DNA from: Succinivibrio dextrinosolvens DSM 3072
GTDB taxonomy: Bacteria; Pseudomonadota; Gammaproteobacteria; Enterobacterales; Succinivibrionaceae
Assembly (NCBI RefSeq): GCF_900167015.1
Contig: NZ_FUXX01000001.1
Location: 1-64,000, forward strand
DNA: 64,000 nt
Direction: 5' to 3'
Each line of letters opens with the position of its first letter. The first letter of the stretch is position 1. This document shows, piece by piece, positions 7,252-35,532 of the stretch. The position numbers and the translations under genes were made by a program. The notes under the pieces were generated by a model, which was not told the origin of the DNA, made no database searches, and was given only the letters and a program-made list of their open reading frames with translations.

Positions 7252-8859
7252 CTAAGAAAGGTATTTTTTCAGCGTATTGCGAACTGCACCCGGGCCTTCG
7301 ACCAATTCTTTAACCATAGTCTCAACCTTATTTCCAAGCTCTGTACTGTATAAATCCAATCCAAATATATTCTTGTTAGAAAGAATTGGTTTCAGATGGT
7401 CTTTAACTGAATCAGAATCCCCCAGTCGGACATCAGATAGTAAATCTGTAAGTTCCTTCAGCATAGGGTCAGGCGATAATTCAAACTTTTTCCCATTATC
7501 ATCTACTGCAAGAAGGTATCTCAACCAGCCAGCGATAGCCAGAGGCAGAGCAACCAGCTTATCTGTTCCGTCTGTCTTGATATGTTCTTTAATGGTATGA
7601 CCGAAACGGATGCCTACCATCTGAGAAATATCGACAGCAATTCGTGCTGAGGTGTCTCCCATATATGCATTAGGGAATCTTACATTCAGAACTTCATCCA
7701 AAAATGCTTTTGGAGAAAGAATCTTAGGATCCTCAACTACAGGAAGACCTTCTACATATCCAAGCTGCTTTGCAAGTTTTGAAAGTTCCGGATCCTTCAT
7801 GCCGTCAGCAAAGAAGGTATAGCCTAAAAGACAGTCATAGGTGCAGAGCGCGGTATGAATAGGGTTCAGACAAACTGTAACCTTCATACGTTCTGATTTG
7901 TTGACAGTCTCTCTGTCTGTCATGAAAACACCGGCCTTTTCAAAATGAGGTCTGCCGTTAGGGAATGAATCTTCTATTACCAGATACTGAGGTGCTTCGG
8001 CATTTACAAATGGAGCGATATAGGTCTTCTTGGAAGTAACCAGAACATCCATATCCTCAATACCCATATCCTTAAGATCTTTTGAAAGTGCATCTCCAGG
8101 ACGAGGGGTGATTTTATCAATCATTGACCAAGGGAAAGCTACTTTCTTTTCATCTGAGACATAGGAAAGGAAATCTTTATCTAAAAATCCCTTTTCTATC
8201 CATTTCTCGGTCATTTCCAGAACACTTTCACGAAGCTTCTTTCCATTCTGGGAAACGTTGTCCATAGAAACCAGCGCAAGAGGAGTAGCGCCAGCTTTGA
8301 ATCGTCTGTAAAGCATTGAAGTAACTATCGCCATTGCTCCGACACATCTGTCAGGACCGTTTTCAATATCGTTTTTAACGTATGGAAGATAATTACCGTC
8401 AGCTCCCTTCAGTGCATATCCCTTTTCTGTAATAGTAAAGCTTACAAGCTGAAGTTCCCTGTTGGTGAAGATTTCCTCAAGACGTTTCATTGCAGAACCG
8501 TCTTTTGTATCTGCCTTTAGAGCTTCACTAAGAGAACCCAGAATACTGAAATCTCTTCTGCCGTCCTGATGAAGTGTTGCAGCCAGAACAAGATTGTCAA
8601 AAGGTTTGTAAATCTTGTCTACAACGTCATAATCAAAGGTTTCAACACAGGTTATACCTCTGTCCAGAAGCTTTTCGGATATCAGTTTGTCAGCAATACC
8701 GCCGATAAAAATTCTGAAGATATTACCGATTCCGAAATGTACCCAGCGAGGAGAGGCAACGGTTTTACGTGTAATCTCTCGGACGTCATAGGAAGGGAGT
8801 TTTACTCCCTTTGACTCCCAGAAATCCTTATTATCAAGTGTCTCGTACGAAAGTTTCAT
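7252..8859 (-). CDS. Mannitol dehydrogenase family oxidoreductase (polyol/hexuronate type)
   Basis: NAD(P)-dependent polyol 2-dehydrogenase superfamily (MtlD/UxuB/DalD relatives), 535 aa. The N-terminal Rossmann domain carries the VHFGIGNIFR nucleotide-binding motif (about 40-49). The C-terminal domain holds the family's Lys/Asn/His active-site region, seen as MKVTVCLNPIHTALC. It is longer than E. coli UxuB, closer to the ~540-aa subgroup often annotated as fructuronate reductase. It is the last gene of the operon, 12 nt after the Zn-dehydrogenase. Next to an FGGY kinase and other polyol dehydrogenases, oxidation of a pentitol or hexitol to a ketose is more likely than hexuronate reduction, because no UxaC or UxuA gene is present. 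Substrate assignment is inference. Confidence 0.85.
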   Translation of the reverse strand: MKLSYETLDNKDFWESKGVKLPSYDVREITRKTVASPRWVHFGIGNIFRIFIGGIADKLISEKLLDRGITCVETFDYDVVDKIYKPFDNLVLAATLHQDGRRDFSILGSLSEALKADTKDGSAMKRLEEIFTNRELQLVSFTITEKGYALKGADGNYLPYVKNDIENGPDRCVGAMAIVTSMLYRRFKAGATPLALVSMDNVSQNGKKLRESVLEMTEKWIEKGFLDKDFLSYVSDEKKVAFPWSMIDKITPRPGDALSKDLKDMGIEDMDVLVTSKKTYIAPFVNAEAPQYLVIEDSFPNGRPHFEKAGVFMTDRETVNKSERMKVTVCLNPIHTALCTYDCLLGYTFFADGMKDPELSKLAKQLGYVEGLPVVEDPKILSPKAFLDEVLNVRFPNAYMGDTSARIAVDISQMVGIRFGHTIKEHIKTDGTDKLVALPLAIAGWLRYLLAVDDNGKKFELSPDPMLKELTDLLSDVRLGDSDSVKDHLKPILSNKNIFGLDLYSTELGNKVETMVKELVEGPGAVRNTLKKYLS

Positions 8860-8871
8860 GATGTCTGGTCC

Positions 8872-9918
8872 TTATTCTTCAGATGGATCAACATCAATTA
8901 AAACTTTCATGGTGCTTTCGCGATTATTATCGATGTATTCGTAAGCCTTATTGTAATCAGCAAAAGCGAACTTAGCACTCTGAAGTGGCTTCAGCTTAAT
9001 CTTACCTTCGTTTACGAATCTGATTGCATCAACGAAATCCTCGTGACGGTACATCATTGAGGTATTCAGATCCAGCTCTGAATCGTTCAGTTTTGCAAGA
9101 TCAACATTTGCCTTCTTGCCGAATACAGCAACTAAAATGATGGTGCTGCCTTTTCTTGCGTTCTGAATAGCCTGATCCATAGTGATGTCAGTGCCGGCAC
9201 ACTCATAGATAACGTCTGCCTTATCAGGACCGAAAGCTTCAACCAGAGCCTTAGCGTAGTCATCCTTCATGGTGTTGACTACATAATCTGCGCCTAATTC
9301 CTTTGCAAGAGCAAGTCTGCCGTCAGAGATATCTGTTGCAAATACTTCCTTGGCACCTAAAGCCTTAAGAGACTGAATCAGCAGAATTCCGATAGGGCCG
9401 CAGCCTAGAACAACAGCTTTAGCTCCCTTTAAATCAGGGAATCTCTTTGCAGCATGAACGGTAACAGCCAGAGGCTCCATCATTGCACCCTCAGAATAGG
9501 TCATATCCTCTGGAATTGGGGTGATTTTGCTTGAATCAACAGCAAAGAACTCACTTGCGGTACCGGTGGTCTGGAATCCCATAACCTTCAGCTTTTCACA
9601 TAGGTTATATTTGCCGTGAAGACATGGATAGCATCTGCCACAGAATACCTGAGGCTCAATAATAACTTTCTGACCAATCTTTAAGTCTTTTACATATTCG
9701 CCTAAAGCGACAATCTGTCCTGAAACCTCGTGACCCTGAGTTACAGGATATGATGTGTAAGGATGTGAGCCATGATAAACATGAATATCAGAACCGCAGA
9801 CGCCAATTTTCTTGATCTTTACCAGAACCTGATCAGGTCCAACCTTTGGTACAGGTACATCTCTAAAGGTGATTTTTCCTGGAGCGGTCATTACCTGCTG
9901 AATCATAGTCTCTTTCAT
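8872..9918 (-). CDS. Zinc-dependent alcohol dehydrogenase (xylitol/sorbitol dehydrogenase type)
   Basis: Medium-chain dehydrogenase of 348 aa that would oxidise a polyol to a ketose with NAD. Catalytic zinc ligands are C41, H63-E64 and E149. The structural zinc Cys cluster is C93, C96, C99 and C107. The Rossmann fold GCGPIG is at 172-177, and Asp196 at the end of beta-2 favours NAD over NADP. This pattern fits L-iditol/sorbitol/xylitol 2-dehydrogenases. It sits in the polyol operon between the unknown 195-aa protein and the mannitol-dehydrogenase-family enzyme, with a Shine-Dalgarno in the 51-nt gap. A xylitol-to-xylulose role suits the FGGY kinase, but other polyols are possible. Confidence 0.88.
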   Translation of the reverse strand: MKETMIQQVMTAPGKITFRDVPVPKVGPDQVLVKIKKIGVCGSDIHVYHGSHPYTSYPVTQGHEVSGQIVALGEYVKDLKIGQKVIIEPQVFCGRCYPCLHGKYNLCEKLKVMGFQTTGTASEFFAVDSSKITPIPEDMTYSEGAMMEPLAVTVHAAKRFPDLKGAKAVVLGCGPIGILLIQSLKALGAKEVFATDISDGRLALAKELGADYVVNTMKDDYAKALVEAFGPDKADVIYECAGTDITMDQAIQNARKGSTIILVAVFGKKANVDLAKLNDSELDLNTSMMYRHEDFVDAIRFVNEGKIKLKPLQSAKFAFADYNKAYEYIDNNRESTMKVLIDVDPSEE

Positions 9919-9969: not shown

Positions 9970-10557
9970 TTATTTTTTGAAATCTTGTTCCAGTTCGTTA
10001 TATCGCTGTTCACATGAAGGTTCATACGCAATCAGTTCCGCATAACATGCTTCACACCATAACGATAGTTCTTTTTCTAAGCCATATACTCGAGCTATTC
10101 CTCGTGACATTTTCCATATATCTTCAGTTGTTCTCTGAAATTTCTCGTCATCTGAAGCTTTTTTCAGTCCAAAGAAGCTTGAGGCATACTTTGCGCTTTT
10201 GCATGTTGAAAGATATCTGCGTACAGCATTTCTCATTTCAAGATACAGTTCTTCGCGCTGTTCTTCATTTAGTTCTTCTCTTAAGAAAAACTCGTCTATA
10301 GTCAGGTTAACTTCGCGCAATGTTGCCTTCTTTAGAAACTTGCGGCGATACAGGCCAGGCAGATAGACACATTTAAAAAGCCACAGATCTGCTATACGGT
10401 CAGGCTTACGTCTGAATTCAAAACGCTTTTTATAGAGTTCTCGACGGAAACTTGGTGTGTCCTTGTCAATTTCTTCTAAAAGAGCCTTTCTTTTCTCAGG
10501 ATCTAGTTCTTCAAAATATTGTCTAATCTGCTGTTCCATTTTTATTTTTTTCCTCAT
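9970..10557 (-). CDS. Uncharacterised 195-aa protein of the polyol operon
   Basis: Soluble, charged, mostly helical protein of 195 aa without signal peptide or membrane segments. It is rich in Lys, Arg and Glu (LDPEKRKALLEEIDKDTP near 19-36; REELNEEQREELYLEMRNAV near 93-112) and has Cys-containing segments near the C-terminus (LWCEACYAELIAYEPSC). I do not recognise a functional motif; it may belong to an uncharacterised DUF family seen beside sugar kinases (DUF6553 comes to mind, from memory only). Its ATG directly follows the kinase stop codon (TAGATG), with an alternative ATG six codons in. This coupling points to a job in the same pathway, such as an accessory or enzyme-assembly factor. 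That role is inference. Confidence 0.75.
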   Translation of the reverse strand: MRKKIKMEQQIRQYFEELDPEKRKALLEEIDKDTPSFRRELYKKRFEFRRKPDRIADLWLFKCVYLPGLYRRKFLKKATLREVNLTIDEFFLREELNEEQREELYLEMRNAVRRYLSTCKSAKYASSFFGLKKASDDEKFQRTTEDIWKMSRGIARVYGLEKELSLWCEACYAELIAYEPSCEQRYNELEQDFKK

Positions 10558-12159
10558 CTACCAGTTCATTGCCTTGATTGCTGACTTTTCAACTTCTAAG
10601 CCTGCAACATAATGACGGGTAAATGTTTCAAATCCTTCTACTTCCTCAGGAGTTGCCATAATTACATCTCCTTTCAGATTCTTAAAGATACGGTTGTTGA
10701 GGAAGTCCTCAAGTTTTCCTTCTTTTTTACCATCTGCCAGGTAAGCGGCCAGCAGGGCAATTCCCCAAGCTCCGCCTTCGGAAGCTGTTTCCATGACTGC
10801 AACCGGTGTATTGATAGCTGCAGACAGAATACGCTGCATAACACCAGGTGTCTTGAATAAGCCGCCGTGACCTAGTATCTGTTCGAGTTTAACACCTTCA
10901 TCCTTTAGCAGAATATCCATACCCAGCTTCACAGCGCCTAGTGAGGTATAGAGATTTGCTCTCATGAAGTTTGCAAGGTTGAATCTGCTGTCAGGCATTC
11001 TTGCAAATAATGGTCGACCTTCATTGATAAAGGTGATGTTTTCACCTGAATAATATCCGTAGGCTAACAGACCACCACAGTCCTTATCTCCTTTCATGGC
11101 ATGATTGTAAAGCTTGTAGTAAAGCTCGCCGGCATCAGCCTTTATTCCCATAAGATCACAGAATTCCTTGAACATCATTACCCATGCATTCAGGTCTGTT
11201 GTGCCGTTGTTGGCATGAGACATTGCGCAAGGGAATCCTGATGGAGTTGCTACCATATCAATCTCACGGTAAACCTTTGAAAGCTGTTTCTCTAAAACCA
11301 CCATCGCAAAGGAACTGGTACCTGCTGAAAGGTTACCGAAGCGAGGGGCAACACTGTTAGTGGCTGTCATGCCGGTTCCAGCATCCCCCTCAGGCGGACA
11401 TAAAGGAATTCCTGCTTCAAGATCTCCTGTCTTATCTAATAACTTTGAGCCCTCTGCTGTAAGTTTTCCTGCATCATCTCCTGCAACCAGAATTTTAGGG
11501 AAAACTTCTCTTATCTTCAGCTTTGAGCCTTTTGAAGAGAGCAGGGCATCAAATTTGTCCGCCATCTTCTGATCATAATCCCTGATTTCAGAATCAATTG
11601 GGAACATACCAGCACCATCACCGATTCCGATGACCTTGCAGCCTGTAAGTTTGTAATGAATCCATGCTGCAAGAGTAAATACTGAGGCCACCTTTTCTAC
11701 GTGTTCTTCCTTATCTAAAAGTCTCTGGTAGAGATGTGCAACAGACCATCTTAGAGGAATGTTGTATGAGAACAGCTCTGTAAGTTCATCTGCAGCCTCA
11801 GTGGTATTGGTATTTCTCCATGTCTGGAATGGGGCTAACTGTTTGTCATCCCTGTCCAGGGCGATATATCCGTGCATCATGGCACTAATACCGATAGCAC
11901 CGATTTTCTTTAAAGTAACCTGATATTTGTCTGCAACTTCTTTTTTCAGGTTTGCGTAGCAGTCACTAAGTCCATCCAGAGCATCTTCCAGTGAGTATGT
12001 CCATATTCCATTTACTAGAGAGTTCTCCCACTCATGAAAACCAACTGCGAGAACATTTCCCTCGTAGTCTGTAAGTACTCCCTTGATTCGGGTAGAACCA
12101 AGTTCAATTCCAAGTGCGGTTCTGCCTTCTGTAATAACTGTAGCAACTGACTTATTCAT
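10558..12159 (-). CDS. FGGY-family carbohydrate kinase (xylulokinase-like)
   Basis: ATP-dependent ketose kinase of 533 aa. The ATPase-fold phosphate loop is GIELGSTRIKGVLTD (17-31), the substrate-loop motif MMHG is at 94-97, the catalytic-base Asp is probably D259 (CPPEGDAGTG), and the second phosphate loop is NLSAGTSS. GHGGLFKTPGVMQRI near the C-terminus is the adenosine-binding region. The MHG motif and a neighbourhood full of pentitol-type dehydrogenases suggest D-xylulose or D-ribulose as substrate. It is the first enzyme gene after the transporter genes, separated from them by a long perfect stem-loop. A ribulokinase role cannot be excluded, especially as the araA locus in this window has no araB. 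Confidence 0.88.
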   Translation of the reverse strand: MNKSVATVITEGRTALGIELGSTRIKGVLTDYEGNVLAVGFHEWENSLVNGIWTYSLEDALDGLSDCYANLKKEVADKYQVTLKKIGAIGISAMMHGYIALDRDDKQLAPFQTWRNTNTTEAADELTELFSYNIPLRWSVAHLYQRLLDKEEHVEKVASVFTLAAWIHYKLTGCKVIGIGDGAGMFPIDSEIRDYDQKMADKFDALLSSKGSKLKIREVFPKILVAGDDAGKLTAEGSKLLDKTGDLEAGIPLCPPEGDAGTGMTATNSVAPRFGNLSAGTSSFAMVVLEKQLSKVYREIDMVATPSGFPCAMSHANNGTTDLNAWVMMFKEFCDLMGIKADAGELYYKLYNHAMKGDKDCGGLLAYGYYSGENITFINEGRPLFARMPDSRFNLANFMRANLYTSLGAVKLGMDILLKDEGVKLEQILGHGGLFKTPGVMQRILSAAINTPVAVMETASEGGAWGIALLAAYLADGKKEGKLEDFLNNRIFKNLKGDVIMATPEEVEGFETFTRHYVAGLEVEKSAIKAMNW

Positions 12160-12259: not shown

Positions 12260-13207
12260 TTATCTCTTACGACGCTTCTTGGACATACAGTCGATACCTA
12301 CGGCAACTGCCAGTACCAGACCTTTTACCACCATCTGGGTGTATTCACTTACGTCCATCAGAATCATGCCGTTGGTCAGAGAGCCGATAATCAGCACACC
12401 TGCAATCACACCTGACATGGAACCAACACCACCGTATACTGATACACCGCCCAGTACTACGCAGGTGATAACATCGAACTCCAGTCCCTTACCTACGGTG
12501 CTCTGTGCTGAGTTTGCTCTTGATAGCAGCACGATACCTGCAAGTCCTGCGAAGAATCCTGAGAATGCATAGATCAGATACTTAACGCGGTTTACACGAA
12601 TTCCAGACAGCTCTGCAGCTTCCTCGTTACCACCAATTGCATAGAAGTAACGGCCGAAATAGGTCTTGTTCAGGATAAAGCTACCTAGTGCAAAGCAGAC
12701 AACCATCAGAATTGCGCAGATTGGAAGAATCTCAAATGCTGACCAGCGACCGAAAATACCGAAAGCTGAATCAAATCCTGCAATTGGACGACCACCTGAA
12801 ATCAGATAGGCAACACCCTCAAATACAGTCTGAGATGCGAATGTGGCAATCAGAGCTGGGATACCTACTGCAGCAACCATGACCGCATTGATAAGACCGA
12901 TACCGGTGGCCATGATTAAGGAAATTGCAACAGCAACCCACATATTTACACCGGCAGCTACCATCAGCCAGGCACAAACCACGTTAACCAGAGTGATGAT
13001 TGAGCCGATTGACAGGTCAATGTCTGCAATCAGAATAACGAAGGTCATACCGATTGCAGCGATTCCATAGTAGGAAACCTGACGAGAGATGTTGATAATG
13101 TTTCTTCCTGTAATAAAGGTTCCATCACTGGCAATTGCGAAGATAATGATTTCGGCGATGAAAACCAGCCAGATTGCGTTCTGTTTTAAAAAGTTTGCGT
13201 TTAACAT
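12260..13207 (-). CDS. Sugar ABC transporter permease (RbsC family)
   Basis: Inner-membrane permease of the ribose/xylose/galactose (CUT2) class, 315 aa, with roughly eight to ten hydrophobic segments. It has the typical motifs ISRQVSYYGIAAIGMTFVIL, DIDLSIGS and ELSGIRVNRVKYLIYAFSG, the last being the cytoplasmic loop that contacts the ATPase. It directly abuts the ATPase gene and lies upstream of the kinase. It probably forms a homodimer with the RbsA-type ATPase and imports a polyol or pentose for the dehydrogenases and kinase of the same operon. Confidence 0.93.
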   Translation of the reverse strand: MLNANFLKQNAIWLVFIAEIIIFAIASDGTFITGRNIINISRQVSYYGIAAIGMTFVILIADIDLSIGSIITLVNVVCAWLMVAAGVNMWVAVAISLIMATGIGLINAVMVAAVGIPALIATFASQTVFEGVAYLISGGRPIAGFDSAFGIFGRWSAFEILPICAILMVVCFALGSFILNKTYFGRYFYAIGGNEEAAELSGIRVNRVKYLIYAFSGFFAGLAGIVLLSRANSAQSTVGKGLEFDVITCVVLGGVSVYGGVGSMSGVIAGVLIIGSLTNGMILMDVSEYTQMVVKGLVLAVAVGIDCMSKKRRKR

Positions 13208-14728
13208 TTATAGAGACTCCTTTGCCCCATCTGTAATACCGGATGCATACTGCATAATCTTGTCAGAGTCGAACTCTTCTTTCTGTAGCTCACCTGTCAT
13301 GCGATTTTCAGCAAGAACAATGATGCGATCCGACATTCCCATTAACTCTTCCATTTCTGATGAAATCATCAGCACACTGCGTCCTGATTCAACCAGCTCA
13401 TTGATAAGTTTGTAGATTTCATATTTGGCACCTACGTCAATACCACGAGTTGGCTCATCGAAAATAATCAGTTCACAGTCAGCTGCCAGCCATTTTCCTA
13501 AAATAACTTTCTGCTGATTACCACCAGAAAGATTCTTCACCAGCTGGTTCAGTGTTGGACACTTAATCTGAATTTCCTCACGGTACTTTTCAGCGATTTC
13601 TTTCTCTTTTCTGGAATTGATTACGCTTAACTTTGAAATACGCTCATAAATAGGCATATTGATATTGTTCTTGATGGAAATTCCTAAAAGAGCACCATGA
13701 CGTTTTCTGTCTTCCGGTACCAGGGCTATTCCAAGATCAATTGCCTCTCTAGGGGATTGAGGATTGATTTCCTTTCCATTGAAAAGAATGGTTCCTGACT
13801 CTTTTTGCTTTGCTCCGAAAATAATCTCAGCAAGCTCGGTTCTTCCTGCACCTACCAGACCACCTAAGCCTAAAACCTCACCGGCATGCAGCTGTAGAGA
13901 GATATCCTTGTCTCCATTACCGGTTACATTCTTAAGCTCAAGTACCACCTTATCCTTGTTAACGCAGCTCTTGCGTGGAGGGTATTTCTGAGTAAGCTCA
14001 CGGCCAACCATCAGCTTGATGAGTTCATCTACGGTGGCTTCAGGAGTAATCAGGGTAGTAACATATTCACCGTCACGGATAACCTCAATTCTGTCTGATA
14101 ATCTGAAGATTTCCTCAAGACGATGAGAAATATAAATGATGGATACGCCTTTCTTTCTTAAAAGCTCAACAACCTTAAACATATTTTCAACTTCGTTTGA
14201 GGTTAGAGGAGCACTTGGCTCATCCATAATCAGAACCTGTGCGTTCTGCTGAATTGCTTTGGCAATCTCAATCATCTGCTGATAACCTACGGTAAGGTTT
14301 TTTACCAGCTCTTTTGGATTGATTTTTATATGCAGCTGATCAAAGGCCTTCTGGGCTTCTCTTTCCATAGCTGCTCTGTCAATTATCATTCCCTTGCGGA
14401 TTGGTCTGCCTAGAAATAGGTTTTCTGCTGCAGAGAGTTCTCCAACGTTATTGAACTCCTGATAGATAACTGCAACTCCGTTCTCAGCTGCAAGCTGAGG
14501 ACTCATTCTGTCGAATTCTTTTCCGTTTACGCGGATCTTTCCTGATGTTGGAATTTCTGCACCGGTACAGCATTTGATCAGTGTGGATTTACCTGCACCG
14601 TTCTCGCCGATAAGACCTAAAACCTCACCTTTTCTTAGTCTGAGAGTAACGTCTTTTAAGGCAACTACACCAGGGTATTCCTTTCTTATATGTTCAAGTT
14701 CCAGAACATAGTTCTCGCTCATTCCCAA
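13208..14728 (-). CDS. Sugar ABC transporter ATP-binding protein (RbsA family)
   Basis: Double-domain ATPase of the CUT2 class, 506 aa. The first domain has Walker A GENGAGKST and Walker B VLIMDEPS with a degenerate signature (LTVGYQQ). The second has a degenerate P-loop (GLVGAGRTE), the signature LSGGNQQKV and Walker B LIIFDEPTRG. This mix of canonical and degenerate sites is normal for RbsA/XylG/MglA. TTGGGAATG-type spacing and AAGGAG upstream mark the start. The ATPase follows the binding-protein gene after a hairpin and abuts the permease gene. Confidence 0.95.
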   Translation of the reverse strand: MGMSENYVLELEHIRKEYPGVVALKDVTLRLRKGEVLGLIGENGAGKSTLIKCCTGAEIPTSGKIRVNGKEFDRMSPQLAAENGVAVIYQEFNNVGELSAAENLFLGRPIRKGMIIDRAAMEREAQKAFDQLHIKINPKELVKNLTVGYQQMIEIAKAIQQNAQVLIMDEPSAPLTSNEVENMFKVVELLRKKGVSIIYISHRLEEIFRLSDRIEVIRDGEYVTTLITPEATVDELIKLMVGRELTQKYPPRKSCVNKDKVVLELKNVTGNGDKDISLQLHAGEVLGLGGLVGAGRTELAEIIFGAKQKESGTILFNGKEINPQSPREAIDLGIALVPEDRKRHGALLGISIKNNINMPIYERISKLSVINSRKEKEIAEKYREEIQIKCPTLNQLVKNLSGGNQQKVILGKWLAADCELIIFDEPTRGIDVGAKYEIYKLINELVESGRSVLMISSEMEELMGMSDRIIVLAENRMTGELQKEEFDSDKIMQYASGITDGAKESL

Positions 14729-14795: not shown

Positions 14796-15824
14796 TTATT
14801 TCATGCCAGAACTAATCTTCTCAACATTTTCCTTGGTAATAGGAGCTACACCACGGATTACGTTGTGCTCAGGAAGCTTGTTCTCAAGAATTAAAGCGAA
14901 CATGCTTGCACAGCTGGTAGCTGTATCAACGTCTGAACCCTCGAAACCGATGATGCCCTTAGCAGGATAGGTTGGATCTGACAGGTGCTGTAACTGCTGC
15001 TTGGTTACGTCAGTTGTAAATACACCCATATCCTCTGGGATCTTGCCGTTGGTTGCGATCTGTAAAGCTTCATCAGCACCGATCATAGGACCTGCACCGA
15101 TACCAGTTACAACCTTGCAGTCTGGTTCACGCTGTAAAATAGTTTCGATTGCAGTCTGAGCCTCGTTTGGACGAAGTGCAGCCTGGCTTGCAACGATCTC
15201 ATACTTGCCGTCAGCAACGTTCTTCATACCCTCACGGATACCTTCCTCACGCTCTAACAGGATCTTGGTCTGTGGGAAGCCTAGAACTGCAACCTTTGCC
15301 TTCTTGTCGGTTGAGTAGTGCTCGTTGATGAAATTACCTGCAAGCTCACCGATTGCAATACCAAGGTTGGTGTTGTTTAGAATCCAGTTGCCGTCGGTAT
15401 TGGTCATAGGATCATCCCAGCACATAACCTTGATGCCCTGCTTTCTTGCCTCAGCACATGCATCTTCAACTGCAGCTGCATCTGATGGGTGAACCAGAAT
15501 GAAATCACAGCCTGATGAAATGAAGTTCTCGATCTGTGCTACCTGCTTTGCTGACTTGTCGTCACACTCAACAATGGTGAATTTTGCACCGTTAGCGCTT
15601 AGAACATCCTCTAAAGCAGCCATAACACCTGCCCAGTATGCGTTACGCAGTGACTGAATGGTAATACCGATCTTCTTGCCCTTTAATGCACTCAGATTAG
15701 CCTTTGCATAGAACTCAGGACTTGCCTGAATACCCTGAGTTTCGCTGGTTGTTGCAGCGAAAGAAGGTGCTGTAAATGCTAATGTAGCTGCACAGAAAAG
15801 TGCTGATAGTAAAGTTTTTTTCAT
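14796..15824 (-). CDS. Periplasmic sugar/polyol-binding protein (RbsB family)
   Basis: Periplasmic binding protein of the Peripla_BP_4 class, 342 aa from the ATG at 15824. I prefer this start because it follows TGGAG and begins a clear signal peptide (MKKTLLSALFCAATLAFTAPSFA, cleavage near residue 23); the frame stays open to 15896, overlapping the SDR gene. Mature-domain motifs include LKGKKIGITIQSLRNAYWAGV, SSGCDFILVHPSDAAAVEDAC and GKIPEDMGVFTTDVTKQQ. It is the second gene of the polyol operon, between the SDR and the ATPase. It should deliver the polyol to the permease encoded downstream. Confidence 0.93.
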   Translation of the reverse strand: MKKTLLSALFCAATLAFTAPSFAATTSETQGIQASPEFYAKANLSALKGKKIGITIQSLRNAYWAGVMAALEDVLSANGAKFTIVECDDKSAKQVAQIENFISSGCDFILVHPSDAAAVEDACAEARKQGIKVMCWDDPMTNTDGNWILNNTNLGIAIGELAGNFINEHYSTDKKAKVAVLGFPQTKILLEREEGIREGMKNVADGKYEIVASQAALRPNEAQTAIETILQREPDCKVVTGIGAGPMIGADEALQIATNGKIPEDMGVFTTDVTKQQLQHLSDPTYPAKGIIGFEGSDVDTATSCASMFALILENKLPEHNVIRGVAPITKENVEKISSGMK

Positions 15825-15870: not shown

Positions 15871-16650
15871 TTAGAAGCAGGTGAATGCACCGTCAACTAT
15901 TACGTCAGAACCTGTTGTAAATGAGCTTGCATCAGATGCAAGATATAAGGTTACAGACTGTAATTCCTCTGGTTCGCCTAAGCGATGCATTGGGGCCATC
16001 TCATTCCAGGTCTTGATTAGTGGAATCAGAGTAGGTGAAGCCTTTACCAGCTCAGTTCCGATATAGCCTGGGCTGATTGAATTTACGCGGATTCCGTGTT
16101 TTGCCCATTCAATTGCTAAGGACTTGGTTAACTGGATTACACCGGCCTTTGATGCGTTATAAGCGCACTGTGGCTGAGGTACGTTAACGATGTGAGCTGA
16201 CATTGAAGCGGTATTGATGATAGAGCCCTTAATGCCTTTTTTGATCATGTATTTGCCAGCTGCCTGAGCGGTTAGGAATACACCGGTAAGGTTAATATTG
16301 ATAACCTTGCTCCACTGGTCAAATGTCATTTTGTCTGCTTCTGCATTGATGCAGATGCCTGCATTGCAGAAAGCGATATCTAATCTGCCGAATTCCTGAT
16401 CGATAACATCTATAAGGTTGTTTACACTCTCAGGATTTGTTACGTCGGTTTTAACTGCAATGCTCTTTACCTTGTACTCCTCGCTGATGAATTTAGCGGT
16501 TTTCTGTGCCTCTGCTTCATCTAAATCAGCGATAACAATGTTTGCTCCAGCCTGTGCAAAGCCCTCTGAAACAGCTTTACCAATACCACGAGCGCCACCG
16601 GTTACAAATGCAGTTTTACCTGTTAACTTAAACTTATCTACAATATTCAT
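15871..16650 (-). CDS. SDR-family oxidoreductase (polyol 2-dehydrogenase-like)
   Basis: Classical short-chain dehydrogenase, 259 aa. The cofactor loop TGGARGIG is at 17-24, D42 after beta-2 suggests NAD, the NAG motif is at 96-98, and the catalytic residues are S149, Y164 and K168. Overall pattern resembles D-arabinitol 2-dehydrogenase and sorbose/sorbitol dehydrogenases. It is the first gene of the polyol operon, directly downstream of the ROK-type operator region. Together with the Zn-enzyme and the mannitol-dehydrogenase-family enzyme it gives the operon three structurally unrelated polyol dehydrogenases. The exact substrate is not determinable here. Confidence 0.88.
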   Translation of the reverse strand: MNIVDKFKLTGKTAFVTGGARGIGKAVSEGFAQAGANIVIADLDEAEAQKTAKFISEEYKVKSIAVKTDVTNPESVNNLIDVIDQEFGRLDIAFCNAGICINAEADKMTFDQWSKVININLTGVFLTAQAAGKYMIKKGIKGSIINTASMSAHIVNVPQPQCAYNASKAGVIQLTKSLAIEWAKHGIRVNSISPGYIGTELVKASPTLIPLIKTWNEMAPMHRLGEPEELQSVTLYLASDASSFTTGSDVIVDGAFTCF

Positions 16651-16754: not shown

Positions 16755-16811
16755 TTACTTTAGCAAAGTAATTTTAATAAAGTAACTTTTATTATATGAC
16801 TTTATATAAGT
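16755..16811. promoter_or_regulatory. Probable ROK-regulator operators in the divergent spacer
   Basis: TTACTTT-AGC-AAAGTAA (16755-16771) is a perfect palindrome, and ACTTT-ATA-TAAGT (16799-16811) is a one-mismatch copy 42 bp away, about four helical turns. The overlapping AAAGTAACTTT lies between them. The same 13-mer occurs three times upstream of the orphan binding protein. The sites lie between the SDR-led operon and the ROK gene. Confidence 0.65.
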
Positions 16812-16948
16812 TATTTGATAGAAGTCATAAATCGTGTAAAATACCTCAAAAAAATGTGATTTATAACGTGTTTTCTGGCTTTCTTCTGTACTTTTGATTT
16901 CTTTTATACGGTACAGTGAATTTATGAAAGCTATTAAAGGATGAAGTT

Positions 16949-18121
16949 GTGAACGATTTTTATATTGACCCAAAAAGACAAAATAAGGAAAGAATTCTCG
17001 GTCTGTTTTTTCAGCATGATGCATTGTCAAAACCACAGATCGCAGAGTTGACAGGTTTCAGCCTGCCAACAATCAATGGTCATATGAAAGATCTCGAGAA
17101 TATGGGTATGATTGGTCCCGGAGAACTTATGGATTCTTCTGGCGGCAGACCTGCAATTTCCTACAGACTTCAACCTAGATCCAAGTTAGCTCTAGGTGCG
17201 GAAATCAGAAAAGACTTTATAAAGATTTGCTTATGCGACCTGAAAGGTGAAGTGGTAAAACTCTGGAACATCGGTGTTGAATACAAAAACGAAAAAGCCT
17301 ATTCAGTTAAACTTAATTCGCTTCTAAAGGAAGCAATCTCAACATGTGGTTATCCACTTGATAATATCCTTGGAATCGGTATCTCCATTCAGGGTGTTGT
17401 CAGCAAGGATGGAACAGAGATTATTTTCTCTAAGATTCTTGATACATCAGAGCTGGATATTGATGTTATCAGAAAGGATATCTCGATTCCTGTCCGTCTG
17501 TGTCATGATGTAAAGACTGCTGCTCTGGCAGAACTTTGGCATAATAGAAAAGTTTCAAACGGTATATACATTGCTCTTTCAGAGCATCTTGGCGGTGCCC
17601 TGATCAAGAGCCGCTGTATAGAACATGGTCGTTCTGGATATGCAGGATCATGGGATCATATAACCTATTCGACAAAAGGAAAGCTCTGCTATTGCGGTAG
17701 ACGTGGCTGTATAGATACCTACTGCAATTTTGCTACCTTATTTGATGGTGAAAGCATTCCCGATTTCTTTTTTAAACTTCGTGAGGAAAAATCAAAATCT
17801 CATGAAGAGCGATGGAGAAAATATCTTTCCACAATTGCGTTTGGTCTGTATCAGACCTGGTTGATTCTGGAGAGAAGGATCATCCTGGGCGGTGATCTTT
17901 CAATGTGGCTAATTCCTGATGATGTAGCCTTTATTGAAAATGAGATCATCAACAGAAGTACATTTACCTGCAAGCCTGGTTTTGTAATTAAGTCCAGAGT
18001 TGAGCATCATGCAAGTGCCATTGGAGCTGCACTTCCTTATCTGGCTGAAGAAATTCCGGAGTATGTAAGACCAATCGAGTCCTGGTCAACGTACTGTAAA
18101 CCTGAAACAGTTGAATTTTAA
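16949..18121 (+). CDS. ROK-family transcriptional regulator
   Basis: XylR/NagC-type regulator, 390 aa, starting at a GTG with AAGGA upstream. An N-terminal winged-helix DNA-binding domain (about 14-57; ALSKPQIAELTGFSLPTINGHMKDLE) is followed by a ROK sugar-binding domain. The zinc-type cysteine motif is visible as C247-x-C249-G-x2-G-C254, though the usual following Glu is an Asp two positions on (IDTYC). Divergent placement next to the polyol operon, and a palindrome repeated in that spacer and upstream of the orphan binding protein, make it the likely repressor (or activator) of both. The inducer is presumably the polyol or ketose. Confidence 0.9.
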   Translation: MNDFYIDPKRQNKERILGLFFQHDALSKPQIAELTGFSLPTINGHMKDLENMGMIGPGELMDSSGGRPAISYRLQPRSKLALGAEIRKDFIKICLCDLKGEVVKLWNIGVEYKNEKAYSVKLNSLLKEAISTCGYPLDNILGIGISIQGVVSKDGTEIIFSKILDTSELDIDVIRKDISIPVRLCHDVKTAALAELWHNRKVSNGIYIALSEHLGGALIKSRCIEHGRSGYAGSWDHITYSTKGKLCYCGRRGCIDTYCNFATLFDGESIPDFFFKLREEKSKSHEERWRKYLSTIAFGLYQTWLILERRIILGGDLSMWLIPDDVAFIENEIINRSTFTCKPGFVIKSRVEHHASAIGAALPYLAEEIPEYVRPIESWSTYCKPETVEF

Positions 18122-18152
18122 AAACATAAAAAATAGTCAAGGAGTAAATTAA

Positions 18153-19115
18153 ATGAATCCATACATTGGACATGAATCTCAGTTATATGGTGTTGAGGAA
18201 CACCGTCTTGTAGGTGGAAAGGGCGACGGCATGCGCCTGTTTGAGGTTCATAATGGTAAAGGTATTGACCTTACTGTTTGCGCAGACAGATGTGCAGATA
18301 TTTCAAGACTGCGCTTTAAAGGTCAGAACATGAGCTATATGACAGCCTGCGGTTATGTTGCACCTGCATACTATGACAGTATTGGCGCAAACTGGCTGAA
18401 TTCTTTTACTGCAGGCTTTCTGACTACCTGCGGATTCCAGAATGTCGGTATTCCTAACGAGGATGAAGGTGAAGAGCTTCCTCTGCATGGTTCAATTGGC
18501 AATACTCCTTGTGAGCATATCTATTACCGAGAGGAAGGTGATGAGTTATGCATATATGCAACTGTTAAGGATGAGACCATTTTTGGCAGAAAACTGGTTT
18601 TAGAGCGTAAGATCAGCGTTTCAACCAAGGAAAATGTAATTGTTATTACTGATAAGATTCTAAACTGTGGTGATAAGGATGAGCAGGTAGGTATCCTTTA
18701 CCACATGAATATGGGCTATCCACTCCTAGATGAGGACAGCATCATCACTATTCCGTCAAATCAGGTTATTGCTCGTAATGCCCACGCTCAGGAAGATATT
18801 GAGAACTGGATGAAGGTTCAGAAACCAACTGAGCACTATGAGGAGCGCTGCTATTATCATTATTTCAAGGATGGAAAGGGCTATGCTTCAATCGAGCAGC
18901 CAAAGATTGGAACCAAACTTGAGATTACATATGATGCTAAAGAGCTTGATCATTTTGTTCAGTGGAAGATGATGGGCGTACGTGATTATGTAATGGGCCT
19001 TGAGTGTGGTAACACCCTTCCAGAGGGAAGAGCTGAAATGCGTAAGCGCGGTCAGCTTAAGTTTGTAAAACCAGGTGAATCCTTAAATTACAAGGTAACC
19101 ATAAGATTAAGCTAG
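18153..19115 (+). CDS. DUF4432 / aldose-1-epimerase-like protein
   Basis: Galactose-mutarotase-fold protein of 320 aa in the DUF4432 family. It starts NPYIGHESQLYGV. Possible active-site positions are LPLHGSIGN (His near residue 112), YHMNMGYPLL (His near 188) and GLECGN (Glu near 285), comparable to the His/His/Glu set of mutarotases. It lies 31 nt after the ROK gene, with a Shine-Dalgarno AAGGAG, and is therefore co-transcribed with the regulator and opposite to the polyol operon. A role in anomer or epimer conversion of the imported sugar is plausible; no member of this family is firmly assigned to my knowledge. Confidence 0.85.
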   Translation: MNPYIGHESQLYGVEEHRLVGGKGDGMRLFEVHNGKGIDLTVCADRCADISRLRFKGQNMSYMTACGYVAPAYYDSIGANWLNSFTAGFLTTCGFQNVGIPNEDEGEELPLHGSIGNTPCEHIYYREEGDELCIYATVKDETIFGRKLVLERKISVSTKENVIVITDKILNCGDKDEQVGILYHMNMGYPLLDEDSIITIPSNQVIARNAHAQEDIENWMKVQKPTEHYEERCYYHYFKDGKGYASIEQPKIGTKLEITYDAKELDHFVQWKMMGVRDYVMGLECGNTLPEGRAEMRKRGQLKFVKPGESLNYKVTIRLS

Positions 19116-19167
19116 TCTGATGTTCTTCTCCGTTGTTGCAGCATATCATTTCGACGGAGAATTATAA

Positions 19168-19202
19168 GGCCAGTGAGGAGAGTTCCCCACTGGCCCTTTT
19201 TT
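19168..19202 (+). terminator. Intrinsic terminator after the ROK-DUF4432 pair
   Basis: GGCCAGTG/CACTGGCC (19168-19175/19188-19195) with inner GG/CC pairing, followed by CTTTTTT. A second, U-tract-less 8-bp hairpin (TTCTCCGT/ACGGAGAA) precedes it. Confidence 0.9.
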
Positions 19203-19222
19203 CATACTCTTCTAAGTTAAAA

Positions 19223-20272
19223 CTATTTTGAAAGCTCTTCGATCAGGAAGTCAATATTGCGGTTCTTGTAAGTCTCACAGTTATCTTTTGTGATTAGTTT
19301 CTGTGGAGTTACGACAACACGTGGTACCTTCTGTCCACTGATTACACGGGCAGCAACCTGCACTGCAATTGCACCTGTTACTTCAGGGAAGGAGTCAACT
19401 GTTCCTGTAAGCTCGCCTTTTGCAATAGATTCGTAGGCAAGTGAAATACCATCTGTTCCAAATACTGCAATCTTACCTAAAAGATCATGTTTCTTAAGGG
19501 TATCAACAGCTCCAAGTGCCATAATGTCATTGTGGCAGTAAATACCGATAATGTTAGGGTGTTTCTTTAGGATTTCTTCAGTAACCTTCTGAGCGTCCTC
19601 AAATACCCAGTTACCGCAAACCTGCTCTACAACCTTGAAGTCATGATTCTTTTTCAGTGTGTTGATAAAACCGCGTGAACGCTGAGTTGTTGCATAGACT
19701 AAAGGTAAACCTTCAATTACTGCAACCTCGCCGCCTTTAGGATATTTCTCCAGGAACCATTCAGCTACGTCCATGCCGTTACGATAATGCATGCCGCCAA
19801 CAAAATAGCGGGTCTGAGGTATAACTGCGTCTGACACATTGATTAGCGGGATCTTTGCCTTTAAAGCCTCTTCGAAAGGAAGCTGCAGGGTAACATCAGT
19901 CTGAGGAGATGCTAGAATTGCAGTTACATTCTTTGCAATCAGTGTTTCTGCAATATTGAGCTGGCCTAAAGGATCTTCCTCGTTCTGAGCTGCAAGATAG
20001 TCCAGCTTTACGCCCATCTTATCTGCCATGAACTTATATCCTTTTCCGATATTCTGCCAGAATTCAATATCTTTGGTTTTTGCTATTGCTCCTAATACAG
20101 TTTTTTGTGGAAATGCAGGAGTCTTTCCTAACTGTACATCAAGCTTCTGCCAGCTGATACGATCTGCTTCTGTATCTGGACTGAGGTTTGTTATTTCTGC
20201 GCTTAATGCGGTAAGAGAAGTGAAAGCAAGAGAAGCAAATAATAACTTAATTGCGGTTTTTACGTTTTTCAT
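19223..20272 (-). CDS. Orphan periplasmic sugar-binding protein
   Basis: Periplasmic binding protein of the Peripla_BP_4/LacI-like class, 349 aa from ATG 20272 (signal peptide to about residue 25, ending TALSA). The open frame extends to 20308, but the signal sequence fixes the start. Motifs include IAETLIAKNVTAILASPQTD, VAVIEGLPLVYATTQRSRGF and HPNIIGIYCHNDIMALGAVD. It has no permease or ATPase gene beside it. Three copies of the 13-bp palindrome found before the polyol operon lie 195-240 bp upstream, so it probably belongs to the ROK regulon and shares the RbsA/C-type transporter, or serves as a sensor-type binding protein in the manner of TorT. The Shine-Dalgarno is weak. Confidence 0.88.
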   Translation of the reverse strand: MKNVKTAIKLLFASLAFTSLTALSAEITNLSPDTEADRISWQKLDVQLGKTPAFPQKTVLGAIAKTKDIEFWQNIGKGYKFMADKMGVKLDYLAAQNEEDPLGQLNIAETLIAKNVTAILASPQTDVTLQLPFEEALKAKIPLINVSDAVIPQTRYFVGGMHYRNGMDVAEWFLEKYPKGGEVAVIEGLPLVYATTQRSRGFINTLKKNHDFKVVEQVCGNWVFEDAQKVTEEILKKHPNIIGIYCHNDIMALGAVDTLKKHDLLGKIAVFGTDGISLAYESIAKGELTGTVDSFPEVTGAIAVQVAARVISGQKVPRVVVTPQKLITKDNCETYKNRNIDFLIEELSK

Positions 20273-20691
20273 AGAGCACCATAAATCAAACAAGGCAAAA
20301 GTAACCAAGTCTGTTCCTTTTGCAGTAAGGACAATTTTCTATTCAGAAAATCTATAAGGAAATTCACTTTGAATTATAGGTTAATATTTTTACCTGTAAA
20401 GCGTATTTTTTATGAATATTCCTTAATCGGGATCTAATCATAAATGATATTTAAAGGATTTAAAAGACTTTATGAAAGTGACTTTTATAAAATGGATATG
20501 ACTTTTATAAAGTGTAATTTATATGCAAAAAGAAAATAACTTTCAGACAATAGTAAGATCTTAATGGATTATTGAAAATTTATTTCTAATGGTGATTATT
20601 AGAGATTATTAGAAAGGTATATATCCTTTCATACATAAACATTTGTATGAAAGGATGGATATGTAAGTAGATTTTTTGAAATATGATTTTG
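20273..20691. other. Regulatory spacer upstream of the orphan binding protein
   Basis: Apart from the three operators (20467-20513) it contains a perfect 12-bp hairpin, ATCCTTTCATAC/GTATGAAAGGAT (20623-20634/20645-20656). The hairpin lies just after the beta-glucosidase stop on the minus strand but has only a weak U-rich tail (ATATATACCTTT). No ORF or RNA gene is evident. Confidence 0.6.
20467..20513. promoter_or_regulatory. Three tandem 13-bp palindromes (ROK-type operator cluster)
   Basis: ACTTTATGAAAGT (20467-20479, perfect arms), ACTTTTATAAAAT (20481-20493, one mismatch) and ACTTTTATAAAGT (20501-20513, perfect arms). They match the motif in the divergent spacer at 16755-16811. Confidence 0.65.
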
Positions 20692-30011: not shown

Positions 30012-31457
30012 TTACTTGTAATACTCAGTAGCCATCTTCTCAAGATCTGCTTCTGTAGTATCCTCTCCGATGCAGATTAACTCAGTGCCGGTTAATTTAG
30101 CGAACAGAGCAATATCCTCACGGGTCAGAGCTGTAGATACAACGCTGTGGTGAGCACCACCTGCATAGCACCAGCCAGCAGTACCAATACGGAAGTTTGG
30201 CTTGTGACGGTACATGATTCTTGCTACAGGTAGTTTTGGCATTGGCTTAGGCTGCTTTACAAGCTCGATATCAGCACAGATGATTCTGAAGTGAGTGCCC
30301 ATATCAACAAGGGTAACCTGAATACCATCACCCTCAACACCGTCAAAGATCAGACGAGCAGGATCAGCCTTGCCGCCGATACCTAGAGGAAGAACATCAA
30401 TCTCTGGCTTGGTAGCTGCGAAGGTTACTGGAACCTCAAGCATGTGAGAAGCAAGCTCAAGCTCTTTACCCTCGGTCAGATCGTAGGTGTAATCCTCGAT
30501 GAAGCCGGTTGCACCCTTGCGGCCTTCTGCCATGTTCATAAGAACTGCTGATAGTGCAGAGATCTTGTAGTCACCCTCTGGACCAAAGCCGATGCCCTTG
30601 CCCATCAGATTCTGAGCTGCAATACCAGGCAGCTGTTTTAGACCGTGCAGATCCTGGAAGGTGTCGGCAAATGCGCCTAGCTTTCTTGCAGACAGGAACT
30701 TCTCCAGACCAACCTCATAGCGAGCCTGTTCACGAACAGCTTCGATATTGCTGGTCTTCATGGTGTACTTTGAGGTGTACTCGTTCATCTTGGTATCAAT
30801 TTCGGCTTCTGAAACAGCATTGATTTCCTGAACTAAATCACCTAGAGCGAAGTAGTTGCACTCCCAGCCGTAACGGATCTGAGACTCAACACGATCACCG
30901 TCGGTAACAGCAACTTCACGCATGTTGTTACCAAATGAAGCAACCTTAAGATGTCTTGAGAAGTTGATTGCACGTGCAACGTCAACGAATCTTGAAATTC
31001 TGTCGATAACGTCCTGATGCTCGTAGTAGCCTGCAACAACCTGGTGAGGGATACGCAGACGTGCGAGAATGAAGCCGTACTCACGGTCACCGTGAGCTGC
31101 CTGGTTCAGATTCATGAAATCCATGTCGATTTCGTCGTATGGAAGCTTCTCATTTGCCTGAGTGTGAAGGTGAATCAGAGGCTTGCGAAGCTCCTGTAAA
31201 CCCTTAATCCACATCTTAGCAGGTGAGAAGGTGTGCATCCAGGTCATAACACCGATACAGTCATCATCAGTGCTTACCTTTCTCATGTCTGCAATACAGG
31301 TCTCTGAATTAACAACTGTTGGAAGTAGTTCAACCTTAACGCCCTGAAGCTTCTTGTTGAAGAACTCTGTCATTCTAGCTGCATCTGCTGCAACCTGTTT
31401 TAAGCATTCATCACCGTATAGGTCCTGTGAACCAACAACGAAATATAACTTAGCCAT
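30012..31457 (-). CDS. araA: L-arabinose isomerase
   Basis: Converts L-arabinose to L-ribulose with a Mn2+ ion; cytoplasmic. At 481 aa it is slightly shorter than E. coli AraA. Family signatures are [11 protein letters not shown] at the start, [51 protein letters not shown] split across 95-130, [27 protein letters not shown] (containing metal-binding Glu) and [20 protein letters not shown] (catalytic His region). It follows the second permease of a sugar ABC importer in the same orientation, after a terminator-like palindrome. No araB or araD is present in the window, so the pathway is completed elsewhere or by other kinases. Confidence 0.97.
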   Translation of the reverse strand: [481 protein letters not shown]

Positions 31458-31510
31458 AATTGATGTTTATCCTTAAATGAATTTGATTAAAAATTTTTAT
31501 TGTTTCAAAA

Positions 31511-31534
31511 AACACCCCGCAAATATTTGCGGGG
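31511..31534 (-). terminator. Terminator-like palindrome between permease and araA
   Basis: CCCCGCAAAT/ATTTGCGGGG (31515-31534) is a perfect 20-bp palindrome. On the minus strand it is followed by GTGTTTTTT, enough for at least partial termination before araA. Confidence 0.7.
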
Positions 31535-31540
31535 GAACTG

Positions 31541-32578
31541 CTACTTGATAACGTGAATTGCTTTTCTGTCAGCAAAGATTGCTACGAAGATTAAGAATAC
31601 GATACCTTCGATTAACTGCATCATTGGGATGCTGAAGCCAATCATGTTCAGGCCTGAGTTCAGAACTACGAACAGTAGTGAACCAACAATGAAGTTACCG
31701 AATCTTGCCATAGCACCACCAGAAATTGGCATACCACCTAAAACCAGAGCGATAAGGATCTGAGTCTCTAACTGGTTACCACCTGATGAAGTTACTGAAC
31801 CATTCTTGATTGAAAGAATGAATGCAGCGAAACCGGTGATTGCACCTGATAGAACGTATACCAGGAACTTGATTCTGTCGGTACGGATACCTGAGAATTT
31901 TGCTGCCTTTTCACCTGCACCGATAGCCTTCAGATAGGTACCGAACTTGGTGAAGCAGAAGAATACGAAACCTACTGCAACAACTGCTGCTGTACAGCCA
32001 ACCTTAAGAGCGGTGCTGTCTAGCTCAATCAGTTCGAATGAACCTGCAACTGGAGCTTCTGTAGTCAGATATTTGATTAAGCCTCTGAACAGGAACATGG
32101 TACAGATTGTTACAATGAAGGATTTGATTTTACGGTTAACGTAGAAGTATCCGTTGATTGCACCTATTGCTGCACCGGTCAGAATACCGCCGATGATTGC
32201 AAGTGGAACACTGTACTGAGACAGTGAGCAGACCACAATTGCGGACAGACCCAGAATAGAACCCTGAGAGAAGTCCAGACCGCCCATGGTCATGATGAAG
32301 AACACGCCCATTGAAGCAATCATGATTACGTATACCTGAGACATAGCCAGTGGTAGCTTATGCATCATCTTTCCGTCGGTCAGGAAGTTGAACAGGAAGA
32401 ATACTAAAACAAGTCCAACGATTGGCAGTAATGAGCGAATCATTCTCATTCTGCGAAGTTTTTTCTGTTCCAGATCTTTCTTGTTGTTATTCTGATCTTT
32501 GTTTCCTAGTGTGTCTGACATGGTCTGGCTCCTTAAACCAATATCTAAGTTCGTATTGTTTGTTGCAATGTCTGTCAT
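31541..32578 (-). CDS. Sugar ABC transporter permease 2 (RbsC/YjfF family)
   Basis: CUT2-class permease of 345 aa, with about 60 hydrophilic N-terminal residues rich in Asn and Lys before the first membrane segment, then eight to ten segments. Motifs: FFIMTMGGLDFSQGSILG and AKFSGIRTDRIKFLVYVLSGAITG. It pairs with a different permease encoded two genes upstream, so the importer is heteromeric like E. coli YtfT/YjfF. The neighbouring arabinose isomerase gene makes L-arabinose, or an arabinose-containing oligosaccharide, the likely substrate. Confidence 0.92.
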   Translation of the reverse strand: MTDIATNNTNLDIGLRSQTMSDTLGNKDQNNNKKDLEQKKLRRMRMIRSLLPIVGLVLVFFLFNFLTDGKMMHKLPLAMSQVYVIMIASMGVFFIMTMGGLDFSQGSILGLSAIVVCSLSQYSVPLAIIGGILTGAAIGAINGYFYVNRKIKSFIVTICTMFLFRGLIKYLTTEAPVAGSFELIELDSTALKVGCTAAVVAVGFVFFCFTKFGTYLKAIGAGEKAAKFSGIRTDRIKFLVYVLSGAITGFAAFILSIKNGSVTSSGGNQLETQILIALVLGGMPISGGAMARFGNFIVGSLLFVVLNSGLNMIGFSIPMMQLIEGIVFLIFVAIFADRKAIHVIK

Positions 32579-32594
32579 TTCTTATATTTCTCCG

Positions 32595-34094: not shown

Positions 34095-34108
34095 TTTTCT
34101 TATCCTTA

Positions 34109-35059: not shown

Positions 35060-35197
35060 GATGTTGATTCCTTTTTTGCATGTGAGGTAAAACCTGACAT
35101 GGGTTTGTTTTTAGTTGAGGCAGAAGCCTTTTGTTGTATCCATGCACATTTGTGCATTTCTGTTAGTTTCAGTGTAAACGAAATTCGATTTAAAATC

Positions 35198-35213
35198 TCG
35201 TAAACGGTTACGA
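35198..35213. promoter_or_regulatory. LacI/GalR-like operator of the arabinose operon
   Basis: TCGTAA-ACGG-TTACGA has perfect 6-bp arms and resembles the TGTAANCGNTTACA class bound by LacI-family regulators. It lies 139-154 bp before the permease start on the minus strand, in a plausible promoter position. Confidence 0.6.
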
Positions 35214-35532
35214 TAATATATGAATATGCACAAAATTTAATTAAATTTGGTTGTTTTTTTGAATCAAATCACATAAACAATTAAAAATCATATATCTTAC
35301 AAAGCATTAGAAATGCTTGTTCTATCTGCGTCCGTATAGCATTTGTGAATTGGTTTCATTGTAAATACGCAATTTTATGAAAAAACTAAAACTATTTACA
35401 TTTTGTTCTGTCAAGAATTATTTATTTGTCACAGGATATACAAAAGTAAACTTTAAGAAATTTTGTAACTAATTGAAAGATAAGGTATTTATGTTTTTAT
35501 CTGAATTATGTGCAAAAATACTTTTCTAAATT

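Follow-up and report, generated by a model that had tools for sequence, protein, structure and literature searches.

A conserved 27-bp palindrome and a putative ROK regulon of a polyol operon and a solitary binding protein in Succinivibrio dextrinosolvens

A stretch of 64,000 nucleotides from Succinivibrio dextrinosolvens DSM 3072 (contig NZ_FUXX01000001.1, positions 1 to 64,000; hereafter the window) contains a gene for a ROK-family regulator, a divergent import and catabolism operon led by a gene for an SDR polyol-type dehydrogenase, and a gene for a solitary periplasmic binding protein, SBP2. Arrays of a short palindrome are found both in the spacer between the ROK and SDR genes and upstream of SBP2. 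Judging from sequence comparisons, it is quite probable that the ROK protein is a local factor that controls the SDR-led polyol operon and SBP2 through these tiled operators. The case for such a ROK regulon is well supported but not proven; as a system it would be of an ordinary kind, distinguished by a neatly tiled operator. The literature searched shows no description of it, most subscription journals lying outside the coverage of that search. The result provides a testable regulon and operator for a polyol pathway of the Succinivibrionaceae, and relates them to ROK operators of a type already described.

The specific signal is a pair of 13-mers

In a preliminary description of this region, a ROK regulon had been defined by a 13-bp palindrome, ACTTTNNNAAAGT, with two sites in the ROK/SDR spacer, 42 bp apart, and three upstream of SBP2, at spacings of 14 and 20 bp. 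These sites and spacings were recovered when the window was searched again, except that the spacer holds three sites, not two: at 1 mismatch or fewer, matches start at 16757, 16771, and 16799 in the spacer, and at 20467, 20481, and 20501 upstream of SBP2. The count of the 13-mer in the window is in itself weak evidence (8 matches at this threshold versus 4.85 expected, with 6 of 100 shuffles reaching 8). Across the genome searched (2.67 Mb in 104 contigs, with the window on contig 36), exact copies numbered 8, versus 15 for the reversed control. Only 3 of these 8 belong to the two arrays; the five remaining copies include three within open frames, and at a distance of 14 bp none of the five has a partner below 4 mismatches. 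The lone 13-mer is thus frequent by chance, and we rejected it as a genome-wide signature.

The specific signal is, instead, two 13-mers placed 14 bp apart, which together form the 27-bp palindrome ACTTTnnnAAAgtnacTTTnnnAAAGT. At 3 mismatches or fewer, the doublet ACTTTNNNAAAGTNACTTTNNNAAAGT matched the genome at two places, 16757–16783 and 20467–20493, each with 1 mismatch, and no third doublet was detected at this threshold; the reversed control gave one match. None of 2000 dinucleotide shuffles of either window region attained the observed 27-mer match. What stands of the earlier regulon is therefore a conserved palindrome that is tied to the ROK gene and also occurs before SBP2, with the 27-bp doublet replacing the lone 13-mer as its specific unit. 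Unit starts in the spacer are 16757, 16771, 16785 (degenerate), and 16799, while those on the SBP2 side are 20467 and 20481, followed by 20501 at 20 bp. The elements of the two arrays, given without strand, are:

16757..16783: putative operator O1, 27 bp, 13-mers 16757–16769 and 16771–16783 (motif match, 1 mismatch)
16785..16811: O2, second pair of units, degenerate 16785–16797 and 16799–16811 (14-bp register; 4 mismatches as a 27-mer)
16813..16825: possible fifth unit, degenerate (3 mismatches), in the 14-bp register; overlaps a CRP-like site
20467..20493: putative 27-bp operator upstream of SBP2 (motif match, 1 mismatch)
20501..20513: single perfect 13-mer, 20 bp from its neighbor; spacing identical in 5 of 5 close genomes

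The doublet follows the ROK orthologue

ROK homologues were searched in 56 genomes of the family at a threshold of 1e-40. Matches occurred in 17 of them: 12 genomes contained an orthologue (at least 39% identity), and 8 matches were paralogous (28–31%). ROK proteins with 87–89% identity occur in S. dextrinosolvens ACV-10, an uncultured Succinatimonas genome, and a rumen Succinivibrio metagenome-assembled genome (MAG). In another family of the same order, two genomes carry a ROK relative that is 36–38% identical, and a MAG named Synergistaceae (locus L052) carries one at 33%, the most distant among the 15 ROK/SDR spacers read. The 27-mer was found at 3 mismatches or fewer in 14 of these spacers, from the 12 orthologue genomes and the 2 of the other family; in 13 the match was attained by 0 of 2000 shuffles, and in L047 (genome G046) by 2 of 2000. 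The 15th spacer, that of L052, contained no doublet at this threshold (best 7 mismatches). Likewise, no doublet was present upstream of any of the 8 paralogous ROK genes, where the best matches had 6–10 mismatches; that of L026, with 6, was attained by 3% of its own shuffles. The 27-mer was also present at 3 mismatches or fewer upstream of SBP2 in 5 of 5 close genomes.

Across all 56 genomes, the 9 doublets with one mismatch were all inside the 12 orthologue genomes, and none was in the other 44. At 2 mismatches or fewer there were 23 doublets (17 of them in 8 of the 12 orthologue genomes) and a single match for the reversed control. The units also keep a strict register: 23 of 26 good units (1 mismatch or fewer) had a partner (3 mismatches or fewer) at 14 bp, while 16 other offsets gave 0–4 of 26. 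This count covered 12 regions, namely ten spacers, the SBP2 upstream region of the window, and an aldolase upstream region in G044, the latter found via the doublet itself; the window's four close relatives and L052 were left out. A search at 3 mismatches or fewer, which covered 14 genomes, detected further doublets outside the ROK and SBP2 loci in G045 (1), G013 (1), G019 (3), and G044 (4). Four of these are within open frames and the rest between or beside genes, and only the G044 aldolase site appeared relevant.

The likely operator resembles that of clostridial XylR

The regulator carries an N-terminal winged helix-turn-helix (HTH) and a C-terminal ROK domain, both above cutoff, which is the architecture of ROK transcription factors. 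The operators of such factors are typically T/A-rich inverted repeats close to the regulator gene and the genes of its pathway, and a repeat of this kind is present here. Clostridial group-1 XylR, a ROK repressor of a sugar pathway in Clostridium acetobutylicum, C. beijerinckii, and Alkaliphilus metalliredigens, has a 25-bp operator consensus, ACTTattAAAnnnnnTTTaaAAAgt, to which binding in C. acetobutylicum was shown by electrophoretic mobility shift assay (EMSA), according to the passages available of that study (PMC2873477). As far as those passages go, the two operators have in common an inverted repeat of the plan ACTT...AAA-N5-TTT...AAGT, with AAA-N5-TTT as its core, and sites both before pathway genes and before the regulator; the one described here differs in its length of 27 bp, or one extra base per arm, and in its 14-bp tiling, of which the same passages describe none for XylR (PMC2873477). 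XylR serves the xylose isomerase pathway (PMC2873477, in the part available), and the likeness drawn here is one of operator plan. No xylose isomerase was found among the proteins of the operon, and its FGGY kinase scored 111 bits versus a cutoff of 380 for XylB.

Palindromes with an N5 center were also detected by a repeat search. It identified O1 as an inverted repeat at 16755–16785, with 13-nt arms around a 5-nt center. In the L052 spacer, at 931–963, it gave an almost perfect palindrome whose arms, 14 nt long around a center of 5 nt, differ in their letters from those of the window. Because the plan matches that of the XylR operator, and because of these N5-centered palindromes in both the window and L052, the 27-bp palindrome is likely the operator, and the 13-mer one half of it. 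Each operator would then consist of two 13-mers 14 bp apart around an AAA-N5-TTT core.

Two observations count against this division: the third of the 13-mers at SBP2 is unpaired, and the four arms are conserved at 0.89, 0.80, 0.87, and 0.83, with no preference for outer over inner arms. The 13-mer itself may thus be the binding unit, each bound by one ROK dimer, with neighbors cooperating at 14 bp. We regard this as possible, though the less favored option. Besides the even arm conservation, it would account for the lone perfect 13-mer kept at 20-bp spacing in all five close genomes, and for the three or more units in one register in G019, G013, G018, and, counting the degenerate one, the window. 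The pairing of 23 of 26 good units at 14 bp argues for the 27-bp operator, however, as do the EMSA-tested XylR operator, in the passages available, and the L052 palindrome, each of which is about 25–33 bp long with a single N5 center. There is also a more speculative reading, less likely than not. As each 13-mer is palindromic, any neighbors at 14 bp would form a full operator, and runs of three to five units could be overlapping operators that make up a tiled, tunable array; it is tentatively conceivable that ROK dimers align cooperatively along it, with the core promoter boxes placed inside weak units. In the same reading, the second array, at its fixed distance from SBP2, might let one factor set the uptake or sensing of a second ligand.

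Among better-known regulators, NagC and Mlc of Escherichia coli share the ROK fold with winged HTH with the protein described here. NagC was its best NCBIfam equivalog, at 82 bits versus a cutoff of 650, and Mlc scored 67 versus 530, both far below cutoff; the operator of NagC and Mlc differs from the array found here. One ROK repressor reportedly has closely packed tandem operators at one promoter, at a spacing unlike that of this array. Thermotoga ROK regulons derived from comparative genomics place operons for sugar import and catabolism under locally encoded ROK regulators; in the parts of that study available they concern other sugars, and the likeness is in regulon layout (PMC3750489).

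Proposed control of the SDR operon

The following elements were assigned in the spacer:

16791..16796, minus strand: TATAAT, proposed -10 box of the SDR operon, inside the weakest unit of the array (assigned by eye)
16814..16829, minus strand: candidate CRP-like site adjoining the array (2 mismatches of 10 to the consensus)

By eye, an SDR-facing TATAAT lies within the weakest unit in the window and in five relatives (G039, G031, G045, G030, and G046). In G018, G013, and G019, an SDR-facing TTGCAA was seen inside a weak unit, 16 bp before TATACT, TAGACT, or TAAACT. Because the likely SDR promoter boxes thus fall inside the array, simple repression of the SDR operon is likely: the bound ROK protein would cover the core promoter and exclude RNA polymerase until a sugar or polyol ligand releases it, and would probably act on its own gene too. 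Most spacers also have a candidate CRP-like site near the array, with a best match of 0–3 mismatches of 10 (perfect in G401) to the consensus. Class II CRP sites have a 29.5-bp geometry; the CRP-like center is about 25.5 bp from the TATAAT, and we therefore rejected a strict class II site and claim only a CRP-like one. The layout of the spacer fits a catabolite-activated promoter that is blocked by the ROK protein.

Proposed control of SBP2 from a distance

SBP2 and its promoter region contain the following:

19223..20272, minus strand: SBP2, a solitary periplasmic binding protein with allose and ribose binders as its nearest matches (below equivalog cutoffs)
20373..20400, minus strand: proposed SBP2 promoter, TTTACA-16-TATAAT (scan score 11 of 12)
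20362..20374, no strand: palindrome ATTCA-N3-TGAAT on the -10/+1 region of the SBP2 promoter (conserved in all five close genomes)

Both promoter hexamers are kept in all five close genomes; the scan that scored this promoter gave 4 sites versus 3.7 in shuffles. In the same genomes, the array ends 65–66 bp upstream of this promoter, and control there would accordingly be distant; the fixed distance itself suggests control of SBP2 from afar. The array would lie about 110–140 bp upstream of the likely start, from where the ROK protein could activate or repress. ROK proteins such as NagC are known to act at a distance, by upstream activation or looping.

It is fairly unlikely, although worth weighing, that these sites serve something other than SBP2, such as the neighboring GH1 gene, or a loop formed with the SDR spacer at a distance of 3.7 kb. 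The array is far from the SBP2 -35 box (66 bp) for direct repression, and the end of the GH1 gene is close to it. This gene is, however, upstream and on the same strand, and it is missing from the L044 neighborhood, where the array persists. Moreover, the distance to the SBP2 promoter is held in 5 of 5 genomes even though the DNA in between is poorly conserved.

In the five genomes, ATTCA-N3-TGAAT had 10 matches, of which 5 are the SBP2 promoters and 5 are scattered sites with 1 mismatch; a second regulator may bind there. Separately, all five close genomes share, without any change, the block ACTATTGTCTG upstream of the SBP2 array.

Weighing the assignment to the ROK protein

Several results weigh against the proposed regulon. 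The promoter scan did not return the proposed SDR promoter (the TATAAT at 16791..16796 has no good -35 box before it), and promoter-like sites were no commoner than in shuffles. Of the 44 genomes that lack a ROK orthologue, 4 contain between them six 2-mismatch doublets; three of these doublets overlap open frames, one resembles a terminator hairpin by eye, and the other two are intergenic, next to genes that look unrelated. Four orthologue genomes (G037, G046, G022, and G013) match at 3 mismatches only, with none at 2 or fewer, and over the 14 genomes searched at 3 mismatches or fewer there were 32 doublets versus 13 for the reversed control. In addition, a solitary SBP2-like gene in G046 (54–56% identical) has no doublet on its contig, and the ROK proteins here have no established orthology to clostridial XylR.

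Binding of the array by the ROK protein is predicted only, a CRP-like site adjoins the array, and a further palindrome is present on the SBP2 promoter, so that another conserved regulator might be responsible. We consider this improbable: the motif tracks the ROK orthologue in 14 of 15 spacers and in two families, one-mismatch doublets are absent from the 44 family genomes that lack the orthologue, and the plan fits a ROK operator. A chance AT-rich palindrome is scarcely credible, as the rarity of the lone 13-mer relative to its reversed control and its slight enrichment in the window are outweighed by the doublet statistics and the conservation across genera, which refute chance for the doublet.

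The ROK protein would control both the SBP2 gene and the divergent operon for import and catabolism that the SDR gene leads. The genes at the ROK/SDR locus are:

16949..18121, plus strand: ROK-family regulator, winged HTH, GTG start (PF00480 7.9e-26, PF13412 9.2e-07)
18153..19115, plus strand: DUF4432 protein, 3' of the ROK gene (PF14486 1.5e-87)
15871..16650, minus strand: SDR polyol-type dehydrogenase; heads the operon, and is paired with the ROK gene across all spacers read
14796..15824, minus strand: SBP1, periplasmic binding protein of the operon's own ABC importer (PF13407)
13208..14728, minus strand: CUT2-type ABC ATPase (profile matches)
12260..13207, minus strand: CUT2-type permease (PF02653)
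10558..12159, minus strand: divergent FGGY sugar kinase (PF02782 1.7e-34)
9970..10557, minus strand: DUF6553 protein (profile match)
8872..9918, minus strand: zinc MDR dehydrogenase (profile match)
7252..8859, minus strand: mannitol-dehydrogenase-family enzyme, 535 aa (open frame; homologue in L044)

The ROK gene is divergent from all eight minus-strand genes, from the SDR gene to that of the mannitol-dehydrogenase-family enzyme. The L044 homologue of the latter is 98% identical and carries PF08125 and PF01232. The FGGY kinase had no PDB sequence match at 1e-12.

The proposed regulon in relatives suggests a polyol pathway

The SDR protein is 72–98% identical to that of the window in the 13 motif-bearing relatives, and 63% identical in L052. 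In G401, G044, G018, G013, and G019, the SDR operon contains a GPH-type symporter (MFS_2) and a free-standing EIIA domain, and in G219 the symporter only; FGGY kinases were observed in G401, G219, and G044. The strongest extra site is a doublet with 1 mismatch in G044 (L092, 2163–2189), upstream of genes for an FSA/TalC-type aldolase and a transketolase. The position of this site hints at pentose phosphates as the drain for the substrate. Taken together, the SDR, the symporter and EIIA domain, the FGGY kinase, and the G044 aldolase and transketolase suggest a pathway in which a polyol is oxidized and phosphorylated into the pentose phosphate pool.

Two side observations concern these operons. 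The symporter and an EIIA-Glc-type domain occupy the place of the window's ABC importer at L073 4607–6435, L074 5915–7719, L050 255–2064, L051 7014–8815, and L053 645–2480. G044 also has a possible further site, an intergenic doublet with 2 mismatches that precedes a HAD phosphatase gene (L093, 3543–3569).

SBP2 probably derives from another importer

SBP2 contains a Peripla_BP_4 domain (PF13407, 8e-48) and, by eye, a signal-like N-terminus. No ATPase or permease of its own is encoded alongside it in the window, G039, G031, G045, or G030. In G020, G037, G030 (where the ATPase is split over two frames), G019, G013, and G018, relatives of about 50% identity are encoded in a cluster with an ATPase and a permease of their own, as well as a TIM-barrel protein, an RpiR regulator, and a PfkB kinase, and part of this cluster is present at a contig end in G017; the TIM-barrel, RpiR, and PfkB families were tested in G037 only and judged elsewhere by similar N-termini. 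No doublet at 4 mismatches or fewer was seen in these seven stretches. SBP2 differs by 21–22% between the window and three relatives, and SBP1 by about 1% or less; in a comparison of substitution rates, from which the permease was left out because of a frame slip, the synonymous rate (dS) was high for several genes. SBP2 probably derives from another importer, and would now share one or feed a sensor.

Genome-wide, 10 CUT2 permease domains were found, all near 7 other binding proteins, one of which (window 35641–36795) is divergent from its permease genes. None of the 10 is thus spare for SBP2, which fits importer sharing and sensing alike and favors neither; the genome has 10 matches to the chemoreceptor signaling domain. 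Among 21 Peripla_BP_4 matches, 4 resemble LacI-type regulators, 7 have permeases near, and 10, including SBP2, look solitary and have signal-like N-termini, as judged from about 1.5 kb on each side, with two of the ten near contig ends. The proposed regulon offers a way into the question of why many binding proteins with no adjacent importer genes are retained in such a genome.

The solitary-looking proteins, 10 of the 17 that are not LacI-like, are at loci L104, L106, L107, L108, L112, and L115–L119. Finally, the window holds a second CUT2 operon at 30015–36795, with a first gene that is arabinose-isomerase-like by eye, two permeases, an ATPase, and a divergent binding protein.

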